Positions 9,492-12,387 of a stretch of 64,000 nucleotides of DNA are shown here, one piece after another; the first letter of the stretch is position 1; each line of letters opens with the position of its first letter. Where the stretch lies: positions 602,527 through 666,526 of the forward strand of contig JAHISV010000005.1 in the NCBI GenBank assembly GCA_018818065.1, read 5' to 3'. The position numbers and the translations under genes are program-made. The DNA comes from Bacteroidota bacterium (GTDB lineage: Bacteria; Bacteroidota; Ignavibacteria; Ignavibacteriales; Melioribacteraceae). The notes under the pieces are model-generated. The model was not told where the DNA came from. It searched no databases and worked only from the letters and a program-made list of their open reading frames with translations.

Positions 9492-10283
9492 TCAAATCCT
9501 CCTCTTCAAAAAACCGCTTATCATATCATTAACAAACTTCGGGTTTTCAAGGGGAGCCAGATGCCCGGCTCGTGGCGCAACACCAAATTCACTATCCTTT
9601 ATCTTTTCGTGTATGGCGCGCATTACTGGTGGTGGTGTCAACTTATCCTGGGCTCCCACCAGAAGAAGTGTTGGGATTTTTATTTTTTTCAGGAAGGGAG
9701 TTGTGTTCGTCCGGCTTAGCATGGCCAGCAGCGAAGCTTTAACACCCTGCGGGTTATGTTGTTTTGCCTTATCTATAGTGGAATTAAAAACCGTTTTATT
9801 CTCCTTGTTCGCTTCCTCTGCAAAAAGAGGGGGAACGAATCCATCTACGAAACTCGCCAATCCCTCAATATTTATTTTATTAATGGCTCCGGCACGCGCA
9901 AGCTTTGTTATGTCGTTATCGGCTTCTGCTTTCGTGTCGCAAAGAATCAGGGCGTTAAAACGATCCTGAGCAAATTCTACAGCACGCAGGGCAATATAAC
10001 CACCCATGGAGAGTCCGCACAAAACAGCTTTTTCGATTTTCATATCTTCTATAATAGAAAAGAGATCATCCTTAAAAGCTTCCATGGTATATTGCGCATC
10101 ACCAACATGACTTTTACCTAAACCACGTATATCATACGATATACAGTAGTAATCCTTACTTAAGCCCTTAAACTGTTTATTCCACATTGAGTGGTCTAAG
10201 GGAAATCCATGTACAAAAATAATAGGTTGGTTTTTAGCGTTTCCGGCAGTTTTTACAAAAAGTCCGTTTATATATTTTTCCAT
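9492..10283 (-). CDS. Alpha/beta hydrolase
   Basis: 263-residue cytoplasmic alpha/beta-fold hydrolase resembling 3-oxoadipate enol-lactonase-type enzymes. The oxyanion region HGFPLDHSMW, the nucleophile elbow GLSMGG (Ser92), the acid loop GAQDKLTPP and the catalytic His in RAGHLAPLENP are all present. A longer in-frame start at 10343 is possible, but the ATG at 10283 has a textbook SD (GGAGGA at 10293-10298 on the minus strand, 9-base spacing) and starts the family-like segment. Substrate unknown. It is divergent from cysE and may share the inverted repeat at 10391-10408. Confidence 0.88.
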   Translation of the reverse strand: MEKYINGLFVKTAGNAKNQPIIFVHGFPLDHSMWNKQFKGLSKDYYCISYDIRGLGKSHVGDAQYTMEAFKDDLFSIIEDMKIEKAVLCGLSMGGYIALRAVEFAQDRFNALILCDTKAEADNDITKLARAGAINKINIEGLASFVDGFVPPLFAEEANKENKTVFNSTIDKAKQHNPQGVKASLLAMLSRTNTTPFLKKIKIPTLLLVGAQDKLTPPPVMRAIHEKIKDSEFGVAPRAGHLAPLENPKFVNDMISGFLKRRI

Positions 10284-10368
10284 TACAGTGTTTCCTCCAT
10301 GATTATAATATGCGATAATAGCAAAAATGATACTGATTGTCATCTTTTTGTCGTCTTAACGACTATTT

Positions 10369-10398
10369 AATATAATACTATATTTTCATACTTGACAA
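10369..10398 (-). promoter_or_regulatory. Candidate promoter of the alpha/beta hydrolase gene
   Basis: On the minus strand TTGTCA (10398-10393) is followed after 18 bases by TATATT (10374-10369), a reasonable sigma-70 match. Its -35 overlaps that of the divergent cysE promoter within the inverted repeat CTTGAC-AAAAAA-GTCAAG (10391-10408), so the two could compete or share an operator. Confidence 0.4.
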
Positions 10399-10420
10399 AA
10401 AAGTCAAGATTGATTAAAAT
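10392..10420 (+). promoter_or_regulatory. Candidate promoter of the cysE-cysK operon
   Basis: TTGACA (10392-10397), exactly 17 bases, TAAAAT (10415-10420). The predicted transcription start falls at about 10426-10428, on the ATG of the short leader frame. The -35 box lies in a 6-6-6 inverted repeat (CTTGAC, six A, GTCAAG; 10391-10408), a possible operator. Confidence 0.6.
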
Positions 10421-10426
10421 TGAGTC

Positions 10427-10516
10427 ATGAAAAATGAAAAATTAATATCTTCAGAAGAAAACCCCTCTCAAACTCACTTGAGAAACTCAGGGTACCTGTT
10501 TACTTGCATATGTTAA
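10427..10516 (+). CDS. Candidate leader peptide, possible cysteine sensor
   Basis: A 29-codon frame starts with ATG at the predicted transcription start, so it would be read from a leaderless mRNA; no SD is visible. The peptide begins MKNEKLISSEENPSQTH and ends with Tyr-Leu-Phe-Thr-Cys-Ile-Cys-stop, so two of its last three codons are Cys codons. It lies 95 bases upstream of cysE, the first committed enzyme of cysteine synthesis. Leaderless cysteine-rich leader peptides that attenuate cysteine genes are known in mycobacteria; the parallel here is inference. Chance occurrence of a short frame cannot be excluded. Confidence 0.45.
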   Translation: MKNEKLISSEENPSQTHLRNSGYLFTCIC

Positions 10517-10603
10517 TGCTCATTTTATGAGCACCCCAAACAAAAATTAAAATCATTTAAAATAAAATTTATTTGTAGTCAGCCTATGGCGAACTATAGG
10601 AGG
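10461..10603 (+). promoter_or_regulatory. Structured cysE leader
   Basis: Three potential hairpins can be drawn: TCTCAA-6-TTGAGA (10466-10483) enclosed by ACCC/GGGT (10461-10464, 10490-10493); TGCTCAT-TTT-ATGAGCA (10517-10533), starting directly after the leader-peptide stop; and CCTAT-8-ATAGG (10583-10600), whose right arm abuts and partly overlaps the cysE SD AGGAGG (10598-10603). Ribosome stalling at the terminal Cys codons could change which of these forms. None is followed by a strong T-run, so control of translation rather than classical termination is the more natural guess. It does not match a SAM riboswitch. Confidence 0.4.
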
Positions 10604-10611
10604 TTAATAAC

Positions 10612-11460
10612 TTGGAAAGCAAATTAGATTTGAATGGATTTGCAGCAGAACTTTTGAAAATAAGAAAATCACACTCGAGAACTTTGCCTGTTAAGGTCGA
10701 AACGCAAAAGTTCGTTGATGACCTGCTGCAGGTGCTGTTTCCGCATTTTACAGAACATATATATTACAGCCCGGAGGAGATTGAGAGCAAGCTGCATCTC
10801 TTGCGACGAAACCTTAAAAATATTTTGATATCTATTAATCTGGAGCCGTCTAGAATTGACCTGGTTGCCTCAGAGTTTATAAAAAGAATTCCAAAAATTA
10901 ACAAGAATCTCTGGAGTGATGCCGAGGCTATTTACAAGGGGGATCCCGCAGCCGAGAGCATTGACGAAGTGATACTTGCCTACCCTGGTTTTTTTGCCAT
11001 TGCTGTTTTTCGGTTTGCACATGAGTTGTACGAATTAAAAGTGCCGATTATCCCAAGGATAATGACAGAGTACGCCCACCAAAAATCGGGAGTAGATATT
11101 CATCCGGGAGCTACTATTGGTGAATCATTCTGCATTGATCATGGAACGGGAGTTGTAATTGGTGAGACTACAGTTATTGGTAATAATGTTAAGATATACC
11201 AGGGAGTTACTCTTGGTGCTCTAAGTGTGGATAAAGCGCTTGCCAACCAAAAACGGCATCCTACCATTGAGGACGGAGTTGTTATTTACGCGCAGGCAGT
11301 TATTCTTGGCGGTGAAACAATCATTGGAAAAGACAGCATTGTTGGAGGTAACAGCTGGGTAACGCAAAGCATACCTGCCTTTTCTGTTGTTTATAATAAG
11401 AGTGAAGTTAAGGTTAGAAACAGTGAAAATTATAAGGAACCCATAGATTTTGTAATCTAA
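10612..11460 (+). CDS. cysE: Serine O-acetyltransferase
   Basis: Transfers acetyl from acetyl-CoA to L-serine, making O-acetylserine, the substrate of the next gene product. 282 residues: an N-terminal helical domain (residues about 1-150), then a left-handed beta-helix of hexapeptide repeats (IHPGATIGESFCIDHGTG, IGETTVIGNNVKI, QGVTLGAL) with the catalytic His/Asp of the DHGTG segment, as in EpsC/CysE enzymes. The start is TTG at 10612: AGGAGG (10598-10603) is placed 8 bases before it and no better ATG is in frame. The gene ends 15 bases before cysK and forms an operon with it. Upstream leader suggests cysteine-responsive control. Confidence 0.95.
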   Translation: MESKLDLNGFAAELLKIRKSHSRTLPVKVETQKFVDDLLQVLFPHFTEHIYYSPEEIESKLHLLRRNLKNILISINLEPSRIDLVASEFIKRIPKINKNLWSDAEAIYKGDPAAESIDEVILAYPGFFAIAVFRFAHELYELKVPIIPRIMTEYAHQKSGVDIHPGATIGESFCIDHGTGVVIGETTVIGNNVKIYQGVTLGALSVDKALANQKRHPTIEDGVVIYAQAVILGGETIIGKDSIVGGNSWVTQSIPAFSVVYNKSEVKVRNSENYKEPIDFVI

Positions 11461-11475
11461 TTGAAAGGAAGTAAA

Positions 11476-12387
11476 ATGAAACTAAATAACATTTTGGAAG
11501 CAATTGGTAATACACCTCATGTGAGGATAAATAAGCTTTACGACAGAAACATAGAAGTCTGGATTAAACTGGAGCGTCAGAATCCGGGGGGCAGTATTAA
11601 AGACAGAATTGCCCTCTCTATGATTGAAGATGCTGAAAAGAGAGGAATACTGAAGGAAGGAAGTGTAATTGTTGAGCCTACTTCCGGGAATACTGGTATC
11701 GGTCTGGCGATGGTTGCCGCTGTAAAAGGATACAAGCTGATACTTGTAATGCCTGATTCAATGTCAGTTGAACGCCGCAAACTTATGTCAGCTTACGGCG
11801 CAACATTTGAGTTGACACCCCGCGAAAAAGGTATGAAAGGCGCTATTGAAAAAGCAAAACAAATTGTTGACTCAACTCCAAATGCATGGATGCCGCAGCA
11901 GTTTGAAAACCCGGCTAATATTTCTGTTCATCAGGCAACAACAGCGCTTGAAATTATTAGAGACTTCCCTGAGGGAATAGATTATTTGATAACAGGAGTT
12001 GGCACAGGTGGTCACATTACAGGCGTAGCAGAAGTATTGAAAGAGAAGTGGCCAAACCTGAAAGTTCTGGCAGTTGAACCTGCGCAATCACCTGTTATTG
12101 CCGGGGGAGAACCCGGACCGCATCCGCTGCAGGGAATTGGAGCCGGATTTATTCCCAAAAATCTTCATACTAATATTCTGGATGGAACTGTACCAGTTGA
12201 TAAGGAAGAAGCATTTGCATTTGCAAAAAGGGCGGCCAAGGAAGAAGGAATATTTGGTGGAATATCATCTGGAGCAACTCTTGCAGCTATAGGGAAAAAA
12301 TTAGCTGAGATACCTGAAGGAAGTACAGTCTTAGGTTTTAACTACGATACGGGGGAAAGATACCTCTCGATTGAGGATTTGTATTAG
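11476..12387 (+). CDS. cysK: Cysteine synthase A (O-acetylserine sulfhydrylase)
   Basis: PLP enzyme that makes L-cysteine from O-acetylserine and sulfide. 303 residues, normal for CysK. The PLP lysine is in NPGGSIKDR (Lys42), followed by the substrate loop PTSGNTG, the phosphate-binding [11 protein letters not shown], and the C-terminal [10 protein letters not shown]. An in-frame TTG at 11461 is possible, but AAAGGAAG at 11464-11471 is the SD for the ATG at 11476. It sits directly behind cysE; together they supply cysteine from sulfide, consistent with the sulfide-handling operon at 28.7-32 kb. Confidence 0.97.

Follow-up and report, generated by a model that had tools for sequence, protein, structure and literature searches.

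A conserved short frame with C-terminal cysteine codons upstream of cysE-cysK as a candidate cysteine-responsive attenuator in Ignavibacteria

Introduction

Cysteine-directed attenuation was termed a first for bacteria when it was proposed in mycobacteria, according to excerpts of that study (Shell et al. 2015, PMC4633059), and mycobacterial cysteine attenuation was reported by Canestrari et al. 2020, according to passages in papers that cite the work (PMC13236596, PMC9031893, PMC9094748). In the tnaCAB operon of E. coli, as described in excerpts of PMC8429421, a Rho site lies directly past the leader stop codon, where the stalled ribosome shields it. A reannotation of Streptomyces lividans yielded eight leader peptides, none of which was assigned to cysteine in the excerpted text and tables (PMC8079986). 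The S. lividans metN leader in that report (Table 4) is filed as methionine-dependent and ends in ARCMCRRMCAF, with three Cys residues; it might be read by means of its Cys codons as well. No such cysteine leader system was reported for Bacteroidota in the titles and abstracts that searches of the open-licence literature brought up, and in the portions of that literature covered, cysteine attenuation of this kind was found described only for mycobacteria.

The stretch of DNA analysed here (the window) comprises 64,000 nucleotides of a Bacteroidota bacterium of the class Ignavibacteria (assembly GCA_018818065.1, contig JAHISV010000005.1). The original prediction held that a leaderless frame ending in Cys-Ile-Cys precedes cysE in the window, and that the layout resembles that of mycobacterial cysteine genes. 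The parallel is correct in kind, as judged from excerpts of PMC4633059. Like the mycobacterial polycysteine leaderless ORFs, the window leader is a short frame, predicted here to be leaderless, that has Cys residues near its C-terminus and stands first in a cysteine operon, and ribosome pausing on the Cys codons would serve as the sensor, as it does in mycobacteria. Unlike the mycobacterial run of consecutive Cys residues, the window leader has Cys-Ile-Cys within a GYxxTCIC end, while 17 relatives in its family are polycysteine. Leaders of the window type also differ from the mycobacterial attenuators in that no sequestration of the Shine-Dalgarno (SD) sequence is predicted for them, and whereas the mycobacterial set spans multiple loci, a single operon (cysE-cysK) was found in the genome to which the window belongs, which represents another phylum.

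Two further groups of attenuators invite comparison. As with the trp, his, leu, and ilv attenuators, a conserved short frame with codons for the product precedes the biosynthetic genes, and sister lineages of the window's family have leaders with a terminator and, in part, an antiterminator. The window type departs from those attenuators in being without a terminator and in closing its frame with the Cys codons. The resemblance to TnaC lies in the short leader, the proposed stall at its 3' end that would shield a Rho site, and the conserved peptide residues. TnaC responds to excess Trp by nascent-chain sensing and controls a catabolic operon, whereas starvation logic and a biosynthetic operon are proposed here.

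Results

The leader ORF lies on the + strand at 10427..10516, from an ATG at 10427 to a TAA at 10514-10516, and its 29 codons (MKNEKLISSEENPSQTHLRNSGYLFTCIC) end in TTT ACT TGC ATA TGT TAA (Phe-Thr-Cys-Ile-Cys-stop). It has only two Cys codons, Cys27 and Cys29, which are split by Ile and belong to a conserved C-terminal motif, Gly-Tyr-Leu-Phe-Thr-Cys-Ile-Cys (codons -8 to -1; 10490..10513, + strand), that is the presumed stall site. The TTG start of cysE follows at a distance of 95 nt. The cysE gene (serine O-acetyltransferase; 10612..11460, + strand) was identified by its best NCBIfam matches, TIGR01172 (cysE) and NF041874 (EpsC), and cysK (cysteine synthase A; 11476..12387, + strand) begins ~16 nt 3' of it. 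The order cysE then cysK, on the same strand and no more than 200 nt apart, was found in 27 of 30 loci examined. Between the leader stop and the cysE SD sequence (AGGAGG at 10598-10603) is a spacer (10517..10595, + strand), and two hairpins lie here on the same strand. The 7-bp hairpin TGCTCAT-TTT-ATGAGCA (10517..10533) stands directly 3' of the leader stop, and the hairpin CCTATGG-CGAA-CTATAGG (10583..10600) runs into the cysE SD, the first AGG of which is overlapped by its 3' arm. The 29-codon frame with its Cys-Ile-Cys end, the hairpin after the stop, and the hairpin abutting the SD, all part of the original prediction, were thus borne out in coordinates and letters. Taken as a whole, the window leader did not fold in an unusual way (z -0.54). 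An Rfam search of the window gave no family at the gathering threshold; four matches with E values of 0.9-7.3 were all to eukaryotic snoRNA models and were taken as chance.

Taken alone, the frame is no more than chance could give. Among dinucleotide shuffles of the window leader, 5% contained a frame whose eight C-terminal residues include two or more Cys, and in 464 kb of the same genome such frames precede 9 of the 143 genes that have free sequence ahead of them, cysE included, while frames with at least three Cys were found upstream of none of the 143. Since 9 of 143 genes have such a frame, the cysE leader is not remarkable by itself, and it is conservation that decides. One mechanical test, in which the scored frame had to end within 160 nt of cysE, was applied to each of the 78 cysE loci collected from the class. 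Two or more Cys among the eight C-terminal residues were found in 37 of 78 loci (4.3 expected from shuffles), against 8 of 78 in the antisense-strand control, and three or more in 22 of 78 (0.35 expected). With the Cys run free to lie at any position of the frame, at least three Cys in eight residues occurred in 30 of 77 loci (2.6 expected). The starts of cysE were chosen by script, and some loci may be off. The relatives and class genomes with no CysE match (53 of 97 at E ≤1e-30 and 227 of 294 at 1e-60, respectively) are uninformative on the leader, and among the loci L032 and L187 come from one genome and L005 and L100 from one record.

In a CysE tree of 77 rows, 40 of which scored no leader in the first test, the window's family accounts for 32 rows. 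Thirteen of these have TCIC-like leader ends, 17 are polycysteine, and 2 are without a leader (L009 and L030). The original prediction had named the loss of the frame or its Cys codons in relatives as grounds for rejecting it, and it withstood that comparison: 30 of the 32 family rows do have a short frame, 47-95 nt before cysE, in which Cys residues cluster near the C-terminus while the N-terminal part drifts.

Outside the class, Cys leaders before cysE are sporadic. Within the same phylum, where 37 loci from 40 of the 58 matching genomes were scored, at least three Cys in eight residues occurred in 3 of 37 loci (1.1 expected) and at least four in 2 of 37 (0.02 expected); for named genomes the corresponding counts were 12 of 78 (2.7 expected) and 5 of 78 (0.1 expected). 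Other Bacteroidota have occasional polycysteine frames upstream of cysE (L112, L119, L121, L143, L272, and L292), with a Chitinophagaceae MAG and Flavobacterium suaedae among the hosts. In a Candidatus Dormiibacterota record (L103), a frame ending in LICTCACS, again with Cys-x-Cys spacing, precedes cysE. Searches of the genome that holds the window pointed to no further leader: among 24 matches to the TCIC pattern, only the one at cysE stood at the end of a short frame that had a start codon, and of 59 matches to the polycysteine pattern, none of the 30 examined resembled the leader of a cysteine gene. A 14-codon frame (MPKQNNKDSCNKCC) before an alpha/beta-hydrolase-like gene (L247, near 1922, genome G019) may be chance.

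The 13 leaders of the window type have a common end, [GSR]Yxx[TSA]C[ILM]C, and unlike N-termini. Tyr at -7 is present in 13 of 13 leaders, with both of its codons in use, and Gly at -8, encoded by three different codons, in 10 of 13. For the final eight codons pN/pS was 0.22; because the 13 leaders were grouped by their end motif, positions -4 to -1 within this span are not independent evidence. Codons -8 to -5 contain no Cys and were not used to define the TCIC class, and here pN/pS was 0.27, compared with 0.89 and 1.12 for the preceding codons. The low value at these four codons, which extend the conservation beyond the sensed codons as in TnaC-type arrest peptides, indicates that the leader end is selected at the protein level. 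The choice of Cys codon is also fixed, with TGC at -3 in 12 of 13 leaders and TGT at -1 in 13 of 13 (10505-10507 and 10511-10513 in the window). Both codons are used in the long frames of the window (64 TGT and 47 TGC).

Upstream of the leader, the best sigma-70-like match within 10000-11500 is TTGACA-17-TAAAAT (10392..10420, + strand; -35 at 10392-10397, -10 at 10415-10420), which agrees at 11 of 12 positions and bears out the promoter-like sequence named in the original prediction. The A of the leader ATG is 7 nt past the -10. Bacteroidota promoters have a -7 element, TAnnTTTG, and TAAAATTG (10415-10422) matches this element as well, at 5 of 6 defined positions. The start codon falls exactly 4 nt after TAnnWTTG in 6 of the 13 TCIC-type leaders (L002, which is the window leader, and L003, L006, L014, L028, and L037), and some such element lies 3-5 nt before the start in 9 of 13, compared with a background in which only 3.3% of start codons have any such element at 3-6 nt. 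Because of this spacing, leaderless initiation is plausible in the TCIC-type subgroup. It would not be general, as most polycysteine relatives have no TAnnWTTG-type element beside the start. The promoter spacing supports the predicted leaderless start in 6 of the 13 closest leaders; in other relatives a short 5' UTR seems to be present.

The -35 is covered by a perfect inverted repeat, CTTGAC-N6-GTCAAG (CTTGACAAAAAAGTCAAG; 10391..10408, + strand), which is a candidate operator of some regulator and is identical and in the same place in L003. Copies with one mismatch were no more frequent in the same genome than matches to a reversed-pattern control, and no regulon was found.

Sister lineages have Cys leaders of another build. 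In nine of them a Cys run stands 10-15 codons ahead of the stop, and an intrinsic terminator starts 10-27 nt past it. Six such leaders, from two further families of the class (L183, L188, L189, L190, L192, and L213), precede cysE and have strong terminators that start 10-26 nt past the stop. The other three, from genomes of a single genus of the order (L021, L026, and L305), lie with their strong terminators between cysE and cysK, at ~129-183 nt after cysE in L021 and ~70-160 nt after cysE in L026. The design of these last three would correspond to a textbook-like cysteine attenuator of cysK alone. Predicted antiterminator pairing, which joins the leader segment from Cys run to stop to the terminator's 5' half, was significant (p ≤0.03) in four of the nine, L183, L189, L026, and L305, and not significant on its own in the other five; the combined p over the nine was 0.0002, with relatedness ignored. 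In L026 the pairing is between TTGGAAGG and CCTTCCAA, and in L305, between ATGGAAG and CTTCCAT, it differs by a changed pair. Judged by its layout, the arrangement in the sister lineages is that of textbook attenuation, in which a stall on Cys would free the antiterminator and a ribosome at the stop would cover it. Among the relatives there thus appear to be three output designs, namely a terminator before cysE, a terminator before cysK, and a terminator-less design with a C-rich spacer.

The terminator-less design was studied in 32 leaders from the ranges L002-L045 and L180-L191, each with two or more Cys among its eight C-terminal residues. Five more loci that passed but belong to distant families (L195, L198, L201, L203, and L205) were left out. 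An intrinsic terminator between leader and cysE was found in none of these 32 terminal-Cys leaders, that of the window included. Their spacers average 18% C and 4.9% G, with C above G in 31 of 32, whereas the 100 nt before the leaders (12.3% C and 12.9% G) have no such bias and the median C-G difference upstream of 238 genes in three genomes is zero. The first 20 nt past the stop are the most C-rich (27-30% C, 6-9% G); beyond them the spacer is rich in A/T. The window's own spacer, a candidate Rho-loading region, has a milder bias (18% C, 11% G). Rho scored above the curated cut-off in each of the 7 genomes searched.

Local folding in the 32 leaders exceeded that of shuffles in 30-nt segments starting -55 to -35 and -15 to -5 from the end of the stop codon. 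Pairing of the -5 bin with the +5 bin was 0.90, compared with 0.09 in block shuffles, and in a strict test for a stem at the stop codon 10 of 32 leaders passed at p ≤0.1, the window leader not among them. In these folding models, stop-codon stems are a partial feature with no assigned role. Both hairpins of the original prediction exist in the window; across the 32 leaders, neither showed a conserved role as a switch, and no stall-dependent release is predicted for the hairpin abutting the SD.

Discussion

From the comparative sequence evidence, we consider it very probable that the window leader is a cysteine-responsive leader-peptide attenuator of cysE-cysK; this confidence applies to the sensor part, while the output step is one that we infer. 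Transcription would start on or next to the ATG of the 29-codon frame. With ample charged Cys-tRNA, the ribosome would read through Cys27 and Cys29, terminate, and leave, which would expose the untranslated C-rich, G-depleted spacer and turn the operon down, most likely via Rho. When charged Cys-tRNA is scarce, the ribosome would stall at the terminal Cys codons with its leading edge at the stop or a few nucleotides beyond, and by shielding the entry to the spacer it would allow cysE-cysK to be expressed.

Rho is the favored output of the terminator-less leaders because the spacer is C-rich and G-depleted, because tnaCAB provides a precedent, and because Rho is present. Set against every other output taken together, Rho-dependent termination has a probability that we place a little short of even. 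Sites for Rho utilization (rut sites) are C-rich and G-poor, and a classical rut site is longer than this spacer, the 47-95 nt from stop to start being short. The G-depletion may merely keep the RNA unstructured.

An alternative output is translation attenuation of the mycobacterial type, in which the SD would be sequestered after release of the leader ribosome and a stalled ribosome would prevent that structure from forming. Such attenuation has been reported in M. smegmatis, according to passages in PMC13236596 and PMC9031893, and the hairpin that abuts and partly overlaps the cysE SD in the window would suit it, as would the predicted folds that pair over the SD in L016 and L023 and a gain in SD accessibility on stalling above that of shuffles in L022, L023, and L038. 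Over all 32 leaders, however, the predicted gain on stalling was 0.009 compared with 0.024 in shuffles, the SD was about as accessible as in 245 control genes (0.439 and 0.419), and spacer-SD duplexes were no stronger within loci (-5.48 kcal/mol) than between loci (-5.63 kcal/mol). An SD-sequestration switch thus found no support in any of these three in silico tests, and we regard this output as unlikely. A similarly doubtful possibility is that the [GSR]Yxx[TSA]C[ILM]C terminus common to these leaders contacts the exit tunnel and arrests the ribosome, so that the nascent peptide would be a sensor besides the Cys codons. The invariant Tyr and common Gly, with free third positions, and the contrast in pN/pS with the codons upstream are what such an arrest peptide would lead one to expect. 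On the other hand, polycysteine leaders of the same family are without the motif and are explained by codon counting, the conservation at -4 to -1 is partly due to the definition of the class, and in some leaders (by eye, L002, L003, L007, L008, L036, and L037) the Gly-Tyr codons also sit in the 3' arm of an upstream stem, so a constraint at the RNA level on these codons is possible.

Two other explanations would dispense with the leader altogether. That a repressor bound at the -35 palindrome alone regulates cysE, with the short frame incidental, is suggested by the perfect 6+6 inverted repeat and its preservation in L003, but we consider it very unlikely: the palindrome has no second exact copy in the genome and, among the upstream regions printed for comparison, is common only to the window and L003, whereas the Cys frame is widespread. 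The palindrome may supplement the leader without taking its place. A chance origin of the frame, which the shuffles of the window leader alone would have allowed, is refuted by the conservation in the class and the family and by the selection on the C-terminal codons, and its probability is practically negligible. The preferred reading is a leader-peptide attenuator that senses cysteine. A more elaborate form of it, to which we give quite a low probability, is that the GYxxTCIC leaders are a new cysteine sensor in which a nascent-chain-assisted, leaderless stall would keep Rho off the C-rich spacer, and that they are related to the terminator attenuators of the sister lineages, which would have moved between cysE and cysK.

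With the leaders described here, cysteine-directed attenuation has comparative support in a phylum other than that of the mycobacteria. The apparent presence of three output designs around one sensor would make the evolution of attenuator outputs directly testable, and the window type adds a candidate leader peptide whose amino-acid sequence is itself conserved.
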